From the NCBI GenBank assembly GCA_903913215.1, contig CAIWKE010000002.1, forward strand, positions 186,001 through 250,000: a stretch of DNA of 64,000 nt, written 5' to 3'. The notes beneath the pieces were generated by a model. The model did no database searches and was not told where the DNA came from. It was given only the letters and a program-made list of their open reading frames with translations. Positions 32,615 to 40,354 of the stretch are shown piece after piece (positions within the stretch are counted from its first letter, which is position 1; every line of letters begins with the position of its first letter). Position numbers and translations under genes: made by a program. The DNA is from an uncultured Holophagaceae bacterium. Its GTDB lineage: Bacteria > Acidobacteriota > Holophagae > Holophagales > Holophagaceae.

Positions 32615-33343
32615 CTAGAGCCAGCGGCGTCCGCCATCCAAGGTCAGGATCTCGCCGGTGAGGAAGGGGCTGTCGGCGGCGTACCGGACGGCGCGGCAGA
32701 GGTCAGCGGGGTTGCCCAGACGCTTCAGGAGGGTCCGCTCTGCCAGGAAGGCGGGGTCGCTGTCCTTGGCCGGAAGCAGCGTCCCGAGGGCGTGGCCCAC
32801 CACGCGAACGCTCGGGGCCAGCAGCTGGGCCAGGCCAGGCACCAGGCTGGCCTGACCCGCCTTGGCGGCGCCGTAGGGCAGGCGCTTCAGCCAGGGCCGG
32901 TGGACGGAGGTGTCCAGCAGGATCTGCAGGCAGGAGCCGCTCAGCAGGCGCGGGGCCAGGGCCTGAGCGCAGAGGAAGGGAAACCCCAAGTTCAGGCGCC
33001 AGGTGGCTTCCAGGTTGGCGGCGGTCCAGGTGCCCAGCGGGGCCTCGGGGAAGGTGCCGGCCGCGAGAATGGCCCCGGAAAGGGCCCAGCCCGCGGCCTC
33101 CAGCCGGTCCAGATCTGCCATCATTCGGGAAACCAGCTGCGGGTTCTCCGCATCCCACTGAAGCGTTTCGATCCGTCCCATCCTGCCCAGTTTTTCCACC
33201 CAGGCTTCCCCAGTCCAGGCTTCCGAGCTGGTCAGCACCAGGTCATGATCCCGAGCCAGATCTTCTGCCAGCGCACGCCCCAGGCGTCGCCGCCCCCCCA
33301 CGACAAGCCAGCTGCTCCGTTCTGCTCCAGGATTCTGCTTCAT
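32615..33343 (-). CDS. Short-chain dehydrogenase/reductase family protein
   Basis: 242 residues from the ATG at 33343 with GGAAG upstream; a TTG at 33361 is possible. The nucleotide-binding loop reads VVGGRRRLGRALAE (variant of TGxxxGIG). The catalytic Ser145, Tyr156 and Lys160 (YGAAKAG) are present. The C-terminal LTGEILTLDGGRRWL is typical of classical SDRs. Substrate unknown. It diverges from the PDZ-phosphatase gene with only 26 bases between starts. Confidence 0.82.
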   Translation of the reverse strand: MKQNPGAERSSWLVVGGRRRLGRALAEDLARDHDLVLTSSEAWTGEAWVEKLGRMGRIETLQWDAENPQLVSRMMADLDRLEAAGWALSGAILAAGTFPEAPLGTWTAANLEATWRLNLGFPFLCAQALAPRLLSGSCLQILLDTSVHRPWLKRLPYGAAKAGQASLVPGLAQLLAPSVRVVGHALGTLLPAKDSDPAFLAERTLLKRLGNPADLCRAVRYAADSPFLTGEILTLDGGRRWL

Positions 33344-33369
33344 CCGGGCATTCTTCCACAAAAGGCGCC

Positions 33370-35925
33370 ATGAACCCCTACCTCAAACGCATCCGGTGGC
33401 GCCTGCTGTGGATCAGCTTCGCCTGCCTGAGCCTCGCCGTGGGTTCCTTCGCCCTCAACCAGTGGGTCTACGCGGGCTCCGACGACCAATGCTCCTGGCA
33501 GGTGGAAAAAGGCAAAATCGTCATCCGGGAAATTCTGCCCGACGGGGTGGCCGAGGAAGCCGGCCTCCTGGAGGGCGACGAGCTGGTGAAGATCCAGGGC
33601 CACTCCTACGAGCCAACCCAGGCGGGAACCCTCAAGGCCCAGGCCTTCATCAATGGCAAGTCCGAGGGCACGATCCTGATCTACTCGGTGCGGCGTCAAG
33701 GCCGCCTGATCCTCGTCCCCGTGCGGCTGGTGAAAAGTCTCGACCTGGCCCAGCTGGCCCTGCTCCTGAACGGCCTCATCGCCTGGGCTGTCAGCCTCCT
33801 GGTGGTGATCTCGGCCCCTGAGCGCAAGTCCTCCCGCCACTTCTTCTATCTGGCCGCCACCACCCTGCTGATGTCCGGGGCCATCCTGTCGGGCACCGCC
33901 CCTTTGGGCATACAGGTGGTGGTCTTCCTCATGGGCGCCCTGGCCGGAGCCCTGCTCCCGCCCCTCTGGATCCACTTCTTCCTGCGCTTCCCGCACCCGC
34001 TCGAACTGCGGAAGAACAGGCGTTTCCTGCGGATCCTCTACACCAGCTTCGCCGTTATGGCCCTGCTGCAACTGGTCCCCCGGCTCCTCGGAGTGGCCAA
34101 TGGCGGCATGATCAGCCCTCCTCCGGGCCTGATGAAGTCGGGCCTGGGCCGGGCCCTGGGCCTGCTCCTCGCCCTGCTGCCGACCGTACTCTTCGTGGGC
34201 GCGGCCATCACGGGCCTGGTTTTCTTCGTCAAGGGGGCCTTCCATGCCCCGGAGCGCCTGCGCCGGGCCCTCCGCCCCTCCCTCTTCGTGGCCGCAGCCC
34301 TCTGCCTGGACCTACTGGCCTGGGTGCTGCTCCGGGGTCGCTTTGGCCAAAGCCTGCTCTTCCAGCGCCAGCTCTACGTCTTCATGCTGCCCCTGCCCCT
34401 GCTGCCCCTCAGCTTCGCCCACGCCATCTTCCGCCACGGGCTCTTCGACGTGCGCAAGGTGCTGCTGCGTTGGCTCAGCTACGTGGCCCTGCTGGCCCTC
34501 ACGGTGGCGGCCTACCTGGGCGGCCTGGCCTGGGCCTTCTCTCACCTGGCTTCCATTCCCTCGGGCTGGGCCGGCGCCCTGGTGGGCCTCCTGGCCCTGC
34601 CTCTGGGCTGGGCCCTGCGGCGCCTGGTGAAGGGCATCCGACGACGCTTCCGCATGGATTTCTCCAGCACCCGGGAGATCGCTCTCAGCGCAGTGCGCGA
34701 ACCCCGAAAAAAATTCAGCGAGGAGTCCCTGCTGAAATCCCTGCGTCGGGCCTTGGGCGAGGCCTTCCAGCCCCAGTTGCTGGAGATCCTGCCCCTGGTG
34801 GAGCGCCAGATCCTGCTGCCCAGCGCCGAAGGTTCGGACCGCGAGGGGCGCCGCACCCACTTCCCGCCTCAGCCCCTGCGCATTCCCCCGGGCCTGCTGC
34901 GCCTGGCTCGGGAGAACCAGGAATTGGTGCTGGGTCTCGGCAGTGAAGAGGCCGACTGGATCCGCGAGCAGGGAGGCACCTTGCGGGCCCATGTGGACGC
35001 CCTGGAGGCCCAGCTCATGCTCCTCCTCCTCGCCGGGGACGATCCACACAGCGTGGTGGTCCTGGGCGGCAAATATGCAGAGCTGAACTACGGCCGCGAG
35101 GACCGGGAGCTGCTGCGAGAGGTGGCCCAGGCCGCGGGCCAGGCCCTGGAAACCACCCTCATGCACCAGCGCCTGGTGGCCCAGGAGCGCCTCAGCCAGG
35201 AGCTGGAGACCGCCCGTCGCATCCAGGAGAGCCTGGTCACCTCCCACCTGCCGCCCATTCCCGGCTTCCAGGTGGCCCTGCGCCTGGAGCCGGCCCTCGA
35301 GACCGGTGGCGACCTGCTCTTCGTCAAACGGCGGCCCAGTGGCCGCTGGCTGGCGGCCGTGGGCGATGTGTGCGGCAAGGGGCTCGCCGCGGCCCTCTAC
35401 ATGGCTCAGGCCACGGCCCTGCTGGAGCAGGCCGCCCAACGGGAGGATCAGAGCCTGGAGGCGATTCTCTGCTCTCTGGACCAGACCCTGCGCCAGCTGC
35501 TGGGCCAGCGCGGCTTCCTCACCCTCATCCTGCTGGAGTGGGACGATGATGGCTGCTACCGTCTGGCTCGGGCCGGGCACCCCGGGGCCCTGGTGCTCCA
35601 GGGGCTCCACGCGGACAGCACCACGGAACTGACCCCCCACGGCCGCGGCCTGGGTCTGCGCCCCGCAGGGCCCGGCGACTGGCAGGTCCAGGAGGGCGTG
35701 TTGCCCCCCAAGGGCTGGCTGGTGCTCTATAGCGACGGTCTTTCCGAGGCCATGAATCGGGAGGGCGAGCTCTATGGCCTGGACCGTTTCAGTGCGCAGC
35801 TACGCCGTCTCTGGGGTACCGGCAGCCCCCGGGCCGCCTGCGAGGCCGTCTTCCAGGATGTGTCGGGCTTCGATACCCAGAACCGGGATGACCGGACCCT
35901 GTTTATCCTAGGAAGGGAGGCCTGA
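33370..35925 (+). CDS. Membrane PP2C-type phosphatase with PDZ and multi-spanning sensor region
   Basis: 851 residues. Order: membrane segment (about 10-30), PDZ-like domain (about 40-120: IREILPDGVAEEAGLLEGDELVKIQG), about seven to eight membrane segments (about 125-420), a GAF-like region (about 440-590) and a SpoIIE/RsbU PP2C domain (about 600-850). Phosphatase metal sites are ETGGDLLFV, GDVCGKGLAAALYM, YSDGLSEAMN and RDDRTLFIL. RsbU/SpoIIE enzymes act on anti-sigma antagonists; none is nearby. The stop overlaps the next gene by one base. The build suggests a stress or envelope sensor whose signal reaches a partner-switching module elsewhere. Confidence 0.85.
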   Translation: MNPYLKRIRWRLLWISFACLSLAVGSFALNQWVYAGSDDQCSWQVEKGKIVIREILPDGVAEEAGLLEGDELVKIQGHSYEPTQAGTLKAQAFINGKSEGTILIYSVRRQGRLILVPVRLVKSLDLAQLALLLNGLIAWAVSLLVVISAPERKSSRHFFYLAATTLLMSGAILSGTAPLGIQVVVFLMGALAGALLPPLWIHFFLRFPHPLELRKNRRFLRILYTSFAVMALLQLVPRLLGVANGGMISPPPGLMKSGLGRALGLLLALLPTVLFVGAAITGLVFFVKGAFHAPERLRRALRPSLFVAAALCLDLLAWVLLRGRFGQSLLFQRQLYVFMLPLPLLPLSFAHAIFRHGLFDVRKVLLRWLSYVALLALTVAAYLGGLAWAFSHLASIPSGWAGALVGLLALPLGWALRRLVKGIRRRFRMDFSSTREIALSAVREPRKKFSEESLLKSLRRALGEAFQPQLLEILPLVERQILLPSAEGSDREGRRTHFPPQPLRIPPGLLRLARENQELVLGLGSEEADWIREQGGTLRAHVDALEAQLMLLLLAGDDPHSVVVLGGKYAELNYGREDRELLREVAQAAGQALETTLMHQRLVAQERLSQELETARRIQESLVTSHLPPIPGFQVALRLEPALETGGDLLFVKRRPSGRWLAAVGDVCGKGLAAALYMAQATALLEQAAQREDQSLEAILCSLDQTLRQLLGQRGFLTLILLEWDDDGCYRLARAGHPGALVLQGLHADSTTELTPHGRGLGLRPAGPGDWQVQEGVLPPKGWLVLYSDGLSEAMNREGELYGLDRFSAQLRRLWGTGSPRAACEAVFQDVSGFDTQNRDDRTLFILGREA

Positions 35926-36437
35926 TGCCCGACCCCGAAGATAGATCTCCGCGCCGCCCCTCTGTTCACTGGACCATCCCGACCTTCCTCGCCCTCCAGG
36001 TGGGCCTGCTGTGGCTCCTGGGGGCCCAACTCCACCAGCAGAACCAGGTCCTCATGGAACTGCGGGAGGAGGTCCACAACCTGGCCGAAGCCATCGATAC
36101 GGAGCCCTCCGCCGACACCACCACCGAGGACAATGGCGCCGTGCCGGCGGCTTTCCTGCGGGAAGAGCCCCCCCAGAAGGCCGCCGTGCTGGGCGCCGAT
36201 GAGGAGGAGCAGGCCCCGGTGCGGGAGCTGAAGGCTTCCCGCGAATCCGCACAAAAGGCCATCAAGGAAGCCCAGGAGGCCCGGTCCAAGTTGTCCATCA
36301 CGGAGAACATCCGCAAGGCCGAGGAGGCCAAGAAGCTCGACGCCGCCCACCAAACCTGGCAAAAGTGGTCCCTGGGCGCGGCGGCCCTGGTGTTCGTGGC
36401 CCTGATCTTTCGCGCCGTGCTGCGTCGGCGGGCCTGA
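35925..36437 (+). CDS. Two-membrane-segment coiled-coil protein, unknown
   Basis: 170 residues. A membrane segment near residues 17-36 (IPTFLALQVGLLWLLGAQL) is followed by a coiled region (HQQNQVLMELREEVHNLAEAI), an acidic linker, a second long charged helix (about 95-140) and a second membrane segment (about 148-165) with a RRR tail. Both ends overlap neighbours by one base (TGATG), so it is made together with the PDZ-phosphatase and the SirB1-like protein. I do not recognise a family. It may scaffold or hold the phosphatase at the membrane; that is inference. Confidence 0.7.
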   Translation: MPDPEDRSPRRPSVHWTIPTFLALQVGLLWLLGAQLHQQNQVLMELREEVHNLAEAIDTEPSADTTTEDNGAVPAAFLREEPPQKAAVLGADEEEQAPVRELKASRESAQKAIKEAQEARSKLSITENIRKAEEAKKLDAAHQTWQKWSLGAAALVFVALIFRAVLRRRA

Positions 36438-37231
36438 TGTCCCTGTTTGAATACCTCCAGGCGGATCCTGAGTGCCGGAGCCTGGCCGAGGGGGCCGTCC
36501 ACGCCGTGGCCCCAGCCCTGGACGATCCCGACCCGGACCATGTGGCCATGCAATTGAACGAGTGGGCCTTCCAGCTGGCCGGACGCATGCCCCTGCCCTG
36601 GAACACCCACAAGGCCATCGACGCCCTGAATGAGCTGCTCTTTGTGGACATGGGCTTCCAGGGCGATCGAGAGACCTACGATGATCCCCTCAACGCCCTC
36701 CTTCCGGCTGTCATCGCCCGGCGCAAGGGCATTCCCATCACCCTCTCCATCCTCTGGGTGGACCTGGCCCGGCGCTTGGGCTTCGATGCCGTGGGCGTGA
36801 ACCTGCCTGGCCACTTCATCGCCGCCCTGCGCACGGACTTCGGCCTGCTCTGCTTTGACCCCTTCAATGGCGGTCGGGCCGTGGGCGAAGAGGACAGCGC
36901 GGGTCTGGTGAAGGCCACCACGGCGGGCCGGGTCACCTTCCAGCGGGACATGCTGAAGGCCGCCACGGGGCGGGAGACGCTCATCCGCTTGGTGCGCAAC
37001 CTGCACCTGCGCTTCCTGCACGCCGAAGATTGGGAGGAGGCCCTCTGGACCGCCACCCACCTCATCCTGCTGGACCCCGCCAATCCCCGCACGCACAAGG
37101 AGCGGGCCTACATCCACCTGCAGCGCAGCGAGGCCGGGCCGGCCCTCGTGGACCTCTGTGAAGCCCTGCGCCTGAGCCCTGATCCCGATCCCGAGATCCA
37201 GGCCTGGATGGCGCAACTGAAGACCACCTGA
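36437..37231 (+). CDS. SirB1/transglutaminase-like protein
   Basis: 264 residues from the ATG at 36437. The family core is seen in YDDPLNALLPAVIARRKGIPITLSILWVDLARRLG and VNLPGHFIAAL, with CFDPFNGG following. The last 80 residues form TPR-like helices (LHAEDWEEALWTATHLILLDPANPRTHKERAYIHLQ in two helical pairs). The catalytic Cys of true transglutaminases is not apparent, though a His in PGHF is kept. SirB1-type proteins are widespread and poorly understood. One-base overlap with the coiled-coil gene. Confidence 0.83.
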   Translation: MSLFEYLQADPECRSLAEGAVHAVAPALDDPDPDHVAMQLNEWAFQLAGRMPLPWNTHKAIDALNELLFVDMGFQGDRETYDDPLNALLPAVIARRKGIPITLSILWVDLARRLGFDAVGVNLPGHFIAALRTDFGLLCFDPFNGGRAVGEEDSAGLVKATTAGRVTFQRDMLKAATGRETLIRLVRNLHLRFLHAEDWEEALWTATHLILLDPANPRTHKERAYIHLQRSEAGPALVDLCEALRLSPDPDPEIQAWMAQLKTT

Positions 37232-37263
37232 GCTGTCGAACCAGTCCTGCAATAGAGGCACCC

Positions 37264-37848
37264 ATGGGTATGCGAATCATAGCCCTGCCCCTCGTCCTCC
37301 TGCTGCTTGCCTCAGCCTGTTCCAAGCCCAAGGTGGTCTACGAGGTGGACCCGGATTTCCCCAAGGCCAGCTTCCACACCCTGGCCCTGGATCCCCGGAA
37401 GGACTTGGTGATCATCCGCGAAGGGCTGCGTCCTCTGGACCCAGCGGGTTCGCGCCAGCTGGTGCTGGCCGAGCTGCGCAACCGGAACTACCAGGCAGTG
37501 CCCGCCCCGGAGGCGGATCTCTGGGTGACGGTGTTTCTGCTGGGGCGGTCAGCCGAACCTAGGGCCGAGGGCGCCAAACCGGGGGGTGGTGAGGGCGGTG
37601 GCCATCACGGTGGGAAGGGTGGCAAGGGTGGCAAGAGCGGCATGGAAGGCAGTCCCCAGGGTGGAGGCGGTTCCCTCGGTCTGACCCTCATCGTTCAGCT
37701 TCAGGACCGCCGGGGCGGCCATACGGTCTGGCAGGGCGAGCGCATCCTGGATGGCCGGGAGCAGGCCGCCGATGGCCGCCCCCTCAGCCTTGAAGCAGCC
37801 CTCCACGAACTTCTGCAGCCCTTGCCCGAGGCGGGCGGACGGCCCTGA
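37264..37848 (+). CDS. Putative lipoprotein, DUF4136-like, with glycine/histidine-rich insert
   Basis: 194 residues from the ATG at 37264 (GAGG five bases upstream). A lipoprotein-type signal ends at LLASACSK. DFPKASFHTLALDP and LVLAELRNRNYQAVPAPEADLWVTVFL resemble the DUF4136 fold. A low-complexity loop GGGEGGGHHGGKGGKGGKSG interrupts it near residues 107-125 and could bind metal. It ends before a perfect two-sided terminator. It may belong to the upstream operon, 32 bases away. Confidence 0.72.
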   Translation: MGMRIIALPLVLLLLASACSKPKVVYEVDPDFPKASFHTLALDPRKDLVIIREGLRPLDPAGSRQLVLAELRNRNYQAVPAPEADLWVTVFLLGRSAEPRAEGAKPGGGEGGGHHGGKGGKGGKSGMEGSPQGGGGSLGLTLIVQLQDRRGGHTVWQGERILDGREQAADGRPLSLEAALHELLQPLPEAGGRP

Positions 37849-37919: not shown

Positions 37920-40175
37920 CTACTTCTTCTGCTGCGCCTCGACGACGGTGAGGGCCGTGAGGTGGATGATGTCGTTCAGGTCACTGTGCCGCTGCAGGAC
38001 GTGGACGGGAGCCGCCATGCCGCAGGTGATGGGGCCGATGACCTCGGCGTTCGCCAACCGCTGCACCAGCTTGTAGCCGATGTTGCCGCTGGTGAGGTCG
38101 GGGAAGATCAGCACATTCGGGCCGCCGGGCAGGTCCACCCAGGGGTAGTTCTCGGCCAGGATGCCTTCGCCCAGGGCGGTGTCGGCCTGCATTTCGCCGT
38201 CGCACTTGAGCTCGGGACGGGCCGCCTTGACCAGCTGGGTGGCCTTCTGGACCTTGCGGACCAGGGGATGCTCGACACTGCCGAAGGTGGAGAAGGAGAG
38301 CATCGCCACCTTGGGTTCCATGCCGAAGGTGTTCTTCACCAGGTCCGCGGTGAGGAGGGCGATTTCCGCCAGTTCCTCACTATTGGGCTCGATGTTCATG
38401 GTGGTGTCGGCGAAGAACAGGACGCGGTTCTTCAGGACCATGGTGTAGACACCGCAGACGCGCTTGACACCCTTCCTGGTGCCGATCACTTCCAGGCAGG
38501 GCCGGATGGTGTCGGGGTAGTACATCGTCAGGCCGGCGATGAGGCCATCGGCCTTGCCCATGCTGCACATCAGGGCGCCGAAGTAGATGCGCTCCTGGAC
38601 CTTGCGGCTGGCCTCGAAGCGGGTGACGCCGCGGCGGTTGCGCAGCTTCCAGAAGGCGTCCTCAGCCTCCTTGCGCCACGAGACCGTGCTGGGATCCAAG
38701 ATCTCGATGCCCGTAAGATCGATGCCGTGCTCAGAGGCGATGCCGCTGATCTCACCGGCATGGCCCAGGAGGATGGGCTTGCAGATGCCCTCGTCAGCCA
38801 TGTGGGCGGCGGCCTGGAGGATCAGGGGATGGTCGCCTTCGGGGAAGACCACGCGCTTGGGGTCATCCTTGGCGCGGTTGACCACGCTGCGGATCACGTC
38901 CTTGCTGCGGCCCTGGAGGCCTTCCAGGTGCTCGACGTAGGCCTGCATGTTGGCGATGGGCTTCTTGGCCACACCGGAATCCATGGCGGCCTGGGCCACA
39001 GCCGGAGCCACCCACAGGAGCACGCGGGGATCGAAGGGCTTGGGGATGATGTACTCGGCGCCGAAGGTGAACATCTGGCCCTGGTAGGCCTTCACGACGG
39101 AATCGGGCACTTCCTCCTTGGCCAGGGCCGCCAGGGCCTTGGCGGCCGCCAGCTTCATGGGCTCATTGATCTCGGAGGCGCGGACATCCAGCGCGCCGCG
39201 GAAGATGAACGGGAAGCCCAGGACGTTGTTCACCTGGTTGGGATAGTCACTGCGCCCGGTGGCCATGATGATGTCATCGCGGGTGGCCTTGGCGGTGGGG
39301 TAGTCGATCTCGGGATCGGGGTTGGCCATGGCGAAGACAATGGGGTTCTTGGCCATGGACAGGATCATCTCAGGCGTCAGGACGCCCTTGCTGGAGCAGC
39401 CCACGAACACATCGGCCCCGGCAATGATGTCGCCCAGGCTGCGGCAGGCAGACGGCTTGAGGAACTTCTCCTTGTAGACGTTCATGCCCTCGGTGCGGCC
39501 CTCGTAGACCAGGCCCTTGGTGTCGCAGAGCCACATGTTCTCGAGCTTGACGCCCGCCACGATCATCATGTTCGCGCAGGCGATGGCCGCGGCGCCAGCG
39601 CCGCTGAACACCACCTTCATGCTCTCCAGGGGCTTGCCGATCAGCTCGGAGGCGTTCATGAGCGCCGCAGTGCTGATGATGGCCGTGCCGTGCTGGTCAT
39701 CGTGGAAGACAGGAATGTTCATTTCCTTCTTGAGGCGGGTCTCGATCTCGAAGCACTCGGGGGCCTTGATGTCCTCAAGGTTGATGCCGCCAAAGGTGGG
39801 CTCCAGGGCCTTGACCACCTGACAGAACCGATCGATGTCCAGCTCATTCACTTCGATGTCGAACACGTCGATGTCGGCGAAGCGCTTGAAGAGCACGCCC
39901 TTGCCTTCCATGACGGGCTTGCCTGCCAGGGCACCGATGTTGCCCAGACCCAGCACGGCGGTGCCATTGGAGATCACAGCCACCAGGTTGCCCTTGGCGG
40001 TGTATTCGTAGGCCAGCTCAGGATCCTTCTCGATGGCCAGACAGGGCTCAGCCACTCCAGGAGTGTAGGCATTGGAGAGATCTCGAGCCGTGGAGCACGG
40101 CTTCGAGGGCACAACTTCAATCTTTCCTTTTCGCCCCTGCGAATGGTAATCGAGGGCTTCCTGCTTACGTTTCAT
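37920..40175 (-). CDS. maeB: NADP-dependent malic enzyme with phosphotransacetylase-like domain
   Basis: 751 residues from the ATG at 40175, with AGGAG seven bases upstream; a GTG six bases earlier abuts that site. The N-terminal 430 residues are malic enzyme ([46 protein letters not shown]). The C-terminal 320 residues resemble phosphotransacetylase ([28 protein letters not shown]) but are usually regulatory in MaeB. It turns malate to pyruvate and CO2, making NADPH. The length is that of E. coli MaeB. It faces the lipoprotein gene and diverges from the gene at 40355. Confidence 0.93.
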
Positions 40176-40354
40176 GGCCACACTCCTCGGTTTGAGTGCC
40201 CTGATTTTGGGCTGAATGACCTCAGCTTACACCTCGTCATTTGATTTCTTGCCTGGAAGGTCATCAAAGCCCACCTTTGTTGCAGCCGTCACACCGTTCC
40301 CTTTCCGAAGTGGCAAGCGGAGAGTAGGCTCCATCCAACGAACCTGGAGGTTTC

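Follow-up and report, generated by a model that had tools for sequence, protein, structure and literature searches.

Three consecutive genes from a Geothrix-like member of the Holophagaceae encode a membrane sensor phosphatase, a two-span membrane protein (CC) and a SirB1-like protein, and they form a strong but separable, non-obligate unit. Our main reading, to which we give a probability of about one half, is that this operon specifies an envelope-sensing receptor complex feeding a partner-switching pathway. The features of the locus, in coordinates of the window (the whole 64,000-nucleotide stretch of DNA that was analysed), are listed here with the evidence for each.

32615..33343, minus strand: SDR oxidoreductase gene, divergent neighbour of the phosphatase gene, probable start ATG 33343 (Pfam, comparison of loci)
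33370..35925, plus strand: membrane sensor phosphatase (PP2C), 851 aa, TM1-PDZ-9TM-GAF-helix-PP2C (ORF, Pfam, alignment, AlphaFold2, Foldseek, charges)
33490..33726, plus strand: predicted periplasmic PDZ domain (aa 41-119) between TM1 and TM2 (AlphaFold2 fold, Foldseek match to the DegS PDZ 4rqy, weak Pfam PDZ)
33754..34617, plus strand: nine predicted transmembrane spans (aa 129-416) (hydropathy, positive-inside charges, alignment)
34720..35067, plus strand: GAF-like domain (aa 451-566) (weak GAF_2, AlphaFold2 fold)
35095..35235, plus strand: long helix connecting GAF and PP2C, candidate regulatory alpha0 helix (AlphaFold2; role by analogy with RsbP, RssB and SpoIIE, PMC5468089)
35266..35916, plus strand: SpoIIE-type PP2C phosphatase domain (Pfam, alignment, Foldseek)
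35925..36437, plus strand: CC, 170-aa two-span helical protein with a predicted periplasmic loop, family-restricted (alignment, charges, phylum search)
36210..36365, plus strand: conserved, predicted periplasmic helix of CC, continuing into TM2 (alignment, structure)
36437..37231, plus strand: SirB1-like protein, 264 aa, Transglut_core2 (aa 35-186) and TPR (aa 191-250) (Pfam, NCBIfam, alignment)

The one-base overlaps between the three genes that a sequence-only reading of this DNA had described are borne out by the open reading frames and by the sequence TGATG at both the PP2C/CC and the CC/SirB1 junctions. The SirB1-like gene starts at ATG 36437, and the longer open reading frame beginning at 36365 is mechanical only.

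The phosphatase domain itself is strongly recognised, with a SpoIIE match (PF07228) of E=1.5e-35 and 123 bits against a cut-off of 25 that covers positions 1-190 of the 192 in the profile, while the PDZ and GAF_2 matches are weak by sequence. In an AlphaFold2 model with a mean pLDDT of 80.8, TM1 is followed by the PDZ domain (41-119), the multi-span region, the GAF domain (451-566), a 47-residue helix (576-622) and the PP2C domain (633-849), so that the folds agree with the PDZ, GAF-like and SpoIIE-type domains proposed earlier. By Foldseek, the PDZ domain matches DegS and CtpB, and RssB, Rv1364c, SpoIIE and SiaA are matches for the PP2C domain. Across 22 homologues, down to 46% identity, the motifs GGD, GDxxGKG, YSDG and DDRT are invariant, as are D648, D666, D789, D840 and D841, which we take to be the metal-binding Asp residues of the PP2C family. 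The PP2C domain is thus predicted to be a catalytically intact enzyme of the RsbU/SpoIIE type. Hydropathy and charges predict ten spans, TM1 ahead of the PDZ and nine more following, in place of the seven to eight previously counted, and this number fits the positive-inside rule. The loop charges alternate as expected if both termini of the phosphatase are cytoplasmic and the PDZ is periplasmic, in agreement with the proposed envelope orientation. Inside the nine-span region the alignment holds a conserved motif, PLPLLPLSFAxAIxRHGLFDV.

On the input side this anatomy resembles that of ComP, the Bacillus competence receptor kinase, for which published modelling places a PDZ domain between TM1 and TM2 and finds ten spans (PMC9620489). 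Both proteins have an inside N-terminus, TM1, an extracytoplasmic PDZ folding near DegS and CtpB, nine further spans and a cytoplasmic output. The window phosphatase thus shows the PDZ between TM1 and TM2 and the roughly ten spans with both termini inside that define ComP-type receptors, but its output is a PP2C domain and not the histidine kinase (HisKA/HATPase) of ComP, with an intervening GAF domain and long helix and with CC and the SirB1-like protein as partners. The likeness is drawn from published anatomy. A profile of the PDZ/ten-span module matched in 216 of 297 Acidobacteriota genomes. Among the 20 distant module loci taken, profile matches show a SpoIIE-type output in five; of nine distant module proteins checked with Pfam, five end in HisKA and HATPase, suggesting that in this phylum the module sits mostly on histidine kinases and sometimes on phosphatases. 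One ComP-type module is thus common to histidine kinases and serine phosphatases across a single phylum, so that one kind of input could feed two-component signalling in some proteins and partner switching in others. Elsewhere among the Acidobacteriota, PDZ-tenTM-GAF-SpoIIE proteins (for example at L190, L191, L192 and L204) have the full-length domain order of the window phosphatase, at about 850-950 aa and with low identity, and they lack CC or SirB1 neighbours; neither gene stands beside the module gene in any of the 20 distant loci. The receptor and the phosphatase are recognisable kinds joined in an architecture seen elsewhere in the phylum. At two of these loci (L191:3205-4614 and L192:5179-6687) a gene for a membrane-anchored TPR-like protein follows the PDZ-tenTM-GAF-SpoIIE gene, perhaps a parallel to the TPR-bearing SirB1-like protein.

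CC consists of two long helices with one span in each and a low-confidence linker between them, and by charge its loop is periplasmic. The second helix is the best conserved part of the alignment, and the consensus of the periplasmic helix is SRESAQKAxKxAxExxSKLSIxENxRKAEE. No Pfam or NCBIfam family matched CC above its cut-off (best matches E>=0.01), so the description of a two-span protein of no recognised kind holds. A search of the phylum found CC in 36 of 396 genomes, all of them Holophagaceae. CC thus appears to be new and confined to this family, a specific membrane partner whose removal is feasible in cultured Geothrix. The literature search found no paper joining PDZ, SpoIIE and partner switching. 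The earlier suggestion of a new envelope-signal system is partly supported but goes too far: CC and the three-part combination are, as far as these searches reach, new and specific to Holophagaceae, whereas the receptor module and the RsbU/SpoIIE output are of kinds already known.

The SirB1-like protein matches Transglut_core2 (E=6.6e-40, 136.6 bits against a cut-off of 23.5) and TPR_9 in Pfam. It has the same domain order as SirB1 (PRK10941), Transglut_core2 followed by TPR, but reaches only 46.3 bits against the cut-off of 391 for that NCBIfam equivalog and is placed in the same superfamily, outside the SirB1 equivalog. Among 16 homologues no conserved Cys was found in the Transglut_core2 domain, and the protein is therefore probably an adaptor and not an enzyme.

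The association of the three genes in relatives, which had been named as a check, is well supported, and the refuting condition set by the sequence-only reading, that relatives do not keep the genes together, does not hold. Relatives with phosphatase homologues at 70-81% identity include Geothrix fermentans, limicola, rubra, paludis, campi and terrae. Within the genus, 36 of the 37 genomes carry the trio side by side, as far as can be judged across contig ends, together with the divergent SDR gene, and the phosphatase is found in 72 of 77 genomes of the family. Eight further genera, not counting g25, supplied 19 loci, and CC directly follows the phosphatase gene in all 19 and the SirB1-like gene follows CC in 18; the sole exception (G084) has a Sel1-repeat-like membrane protein there instead (L123:10398-11714) and no SirB1 match anywhere in its genome. 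In 34 of 38 loci the PP2C and CC genes share 1 or 4 bases. The DUF4136-like lipoprotein gene at 37264-37848, noted earlier as following the trio, falls away as a fourth member: of 20 loci from the genus only 3 have it, and no locus from another genus does. A 189-aa membrane protein (M189; 59-83% identity across the family, no Pfam or NCBIfam match) lies directly downstream of the SirB1-like gene or of the phosphatase gene in several other genera (L215:8635-9204 on the minus strand, L122:10681-11247, L130:8581-9150) and elsewhere in Geothrix, at G000:C10:150204-150770 in the genome of the window. It was considered as a missing component and set aside, since it is near-universal (72 of 77 genomes), persists in reduced genomes that lack the operon and has a distant locus in the genome of the window; M189 is treated as a neighbour and not as part of the operon.

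The unit is separable because of exceptions in G073, g25 and g16. In G073 (L215:9240-11340) the phosphatase gene is gone and the SDR, CC and SirB1-like genes stand side by side with intact frames and a clean junction; CC carries its own GGAGG just before the ATG, and M189 also remains downstream. Compared with the sister genome G074, CC is 58% and the SirB1-like protein 77% identical, within the ranges found for pairs whose SDR proteins have diverged to a similar degree (51-87% and 70-94%), so both genes appear to evolve at normal rates. Either they function without the phosphatase or its loss is very recent. Genus g25, whose records are labelled Holophagales or Holophagaceae and whose isolate names suggest an origin in termite guts, keeps the phosphatase gene, and its genomes contain no SirB1 match. 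In g25 the C-terminal half of CC is found in one locus and the N-terminal half in another, with none elsewhere; that the two pieces complement each other points to decay of a CC that was once whole. None of the three genes remains in the reduced g16 genomes, where the SDR gene adjoins the malic-enzyme gene. The one genus genome without the trio (G028) also lacks the neighbouring SDR and malic-enzyme genes, which weakens it as evidence of loss of a unit. G073 and the g25 genomes are natural cases in which the dependence of one part on another can be compared.

STAS proteins are substrates of SpoIIE-family phosphatases (PMC11418112), and the genome of the window holds seven of them, along with ten SpoIIE matches and two strong RsbW-like proteins. 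The expected STAS proteins are thus present elsewhere in the genome, none of them near the operon. The neighbourhood contains no STAS or RsbW gene, as the sequence-only reading had noted in finding no anti-sigma or antagonist gene nearby, and the adjacent STAS and RsbW-like genes typical of partner switching are absent from the operon, with orphan copies elsewhere. The window phosphatase shares with RsbU, SpoIIE and Rv1364c the PP2C fold, the metal-site motifs and a helical element before the PP2C domain, but differs in its input module and in having no linked STAS or RsbW gene. One Rsb set at C10 is complete by itself. The RsbW-like gene C12:46950 and the STAS genes C12:93639, C19:15952 and C27:44292 have no phosphatase neighbour, and the C12 and C27 STAS genes adjoin chemotaxis-type genes. 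Of the family genomes tested, all 15 that have the phosphatase also encode the C12 RsbW-like protein, and three of the four that lack the phosphatase lack this protein too; the exception is G028, where the whole region of the operon is missing. In a sister-family genome (G037) homologues of the C12 kinase and the C19 STAS protein are adjacent, and in G038 the protein encoded beside the kinase homologue ranks no higher than second among the matches to the C19 protein. Other orphan phosphatases are also encoded in the genome of the window. We therefore infer that C19:15952 with C12:46950 is the best substrate candidate, only because of co-occurrence and neighbourhood and from few independent events.

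Under the main reading, the periplasmic PDZ and the ten-span domain, a ComP-type input, would detect an envelope or extracellular ligand, and CC, anchored in the membrane and extending its helices into the periplasm, would act as a receptor subunit or modulator. The signal would pass from the GAF domain through the long helix (576-622) to the PP2C switch helices and turn dephosphorylation on or off; docking of a helix on the PP2C switch is the published mode of control of these phosphatases (PMC5468089). The substrate would be a phosphorylated STAS anti-antagonist encoded elsewhere, with C19:15952 as the best candidate and C12:46950 as the RsbW-like kinase, and the SirB1-like protein would be a catalytically inactive cytoplasmic adaptor combining TPR and a transglutaminase fold. 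The analysis shows the gene order, the domains and their folds, the predicted topology, the intact PP2C motifs and the confinement of CC to the family; what the ligand and the substrate are, which way the signal runs, whether the three proteins touch and what the SirB1-like protein does are the parts of this scheme that we infer. The most specific version, a three-part receptor in which a ComP-type phosphatase is set by a Holophagaceae-only periplasmic two-helix partner and an inactive transglutaminase-TPR adaptor and connects the envelope to a distant STAS/RsbW switch, is offered tentatively. Distance-matrix correlations between CC and the transmembrane region and between the SirB1-like protein and the PP2C domain are weak; they were discarded as evidence of co-evolution since they are unspecific, the SirB1-like protein being linked with SDR as well.

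A different account, which we hold to be possible if doubtful, is that CC and the SirB1-like protein have an envelope function of their own, as a scaffold or proteostasis adaptor, and are merely co-transcribed with the phosphatase, which alone would be an ordinary ComP-input phosphatase. The clean loss of the phosphatase in G073 with its neighbours left in place, the ordinary identity of CC and the SirB1-like protein in that genome, the retention of the phosphatase without a SirB1-like protein in g25 and the phylum's other PDZ-tenTM-GAF-SpoIIE genes without adjacent CC or SirB1 all argue for it. However, adjacency is near-universal across nine genera, with overlapping start and stop codons and tighter than for the flanks, and the reduced g16 genomes have lost all three genes yet kept the neighbouring SDR and malic-enzyme genes. 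That the genes stay in order only because genomes of this family rearrange slowly, and not because the genes work together, is very improbable: some flanks, such as the malic-enzyme gene, do stay near within the genus, but outside it the flanks drop away (the malic-enzyme gene is seen in 7 of the other-genus loci, the hydrolase gene in 2 and the lipoprotein gene in none, some contigs being short) against 19 of 19 for PP2C-CC and 18 of 19 for CC-SirB1, and the overlapping reading frames are maintained.

The proposed output must also be weighed against a phosphatase target that is another phosphoprotein and not a STAS anti-antagonist, as for non-canonical SpoIIE-family enzymes. The neighbourhood free of STAS and RsbW genes would suit such a target, as would a weak SiaA match in the first part of the PP2C region and the SiaA PP2C domain among the fold matches. 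We consider it unlikely, since the best structural matches fall in the RsbU/SpoIIE/RssB/SiaA group and orphan STAS and RsbW genes are available in the genome.

Two flanking genes deserve mention in their own right. A malic enzyme fused to phosphate acetyltransferase (window 37920-40181, minus strand) is convergent to the operon, and this fusion gene stays nearby in much of the Holophagaceae. The divergent SDR gene (window 32615-33370 region), pteridine-reductase-like with a score below the cut-off, adjoins the phosphatase gene in all 24 loci, g25 included. The two start codons lie about 8-26 bases apart, a closeness kept in most relatives, and the promoters must therefore overlap or sit inside one gene.
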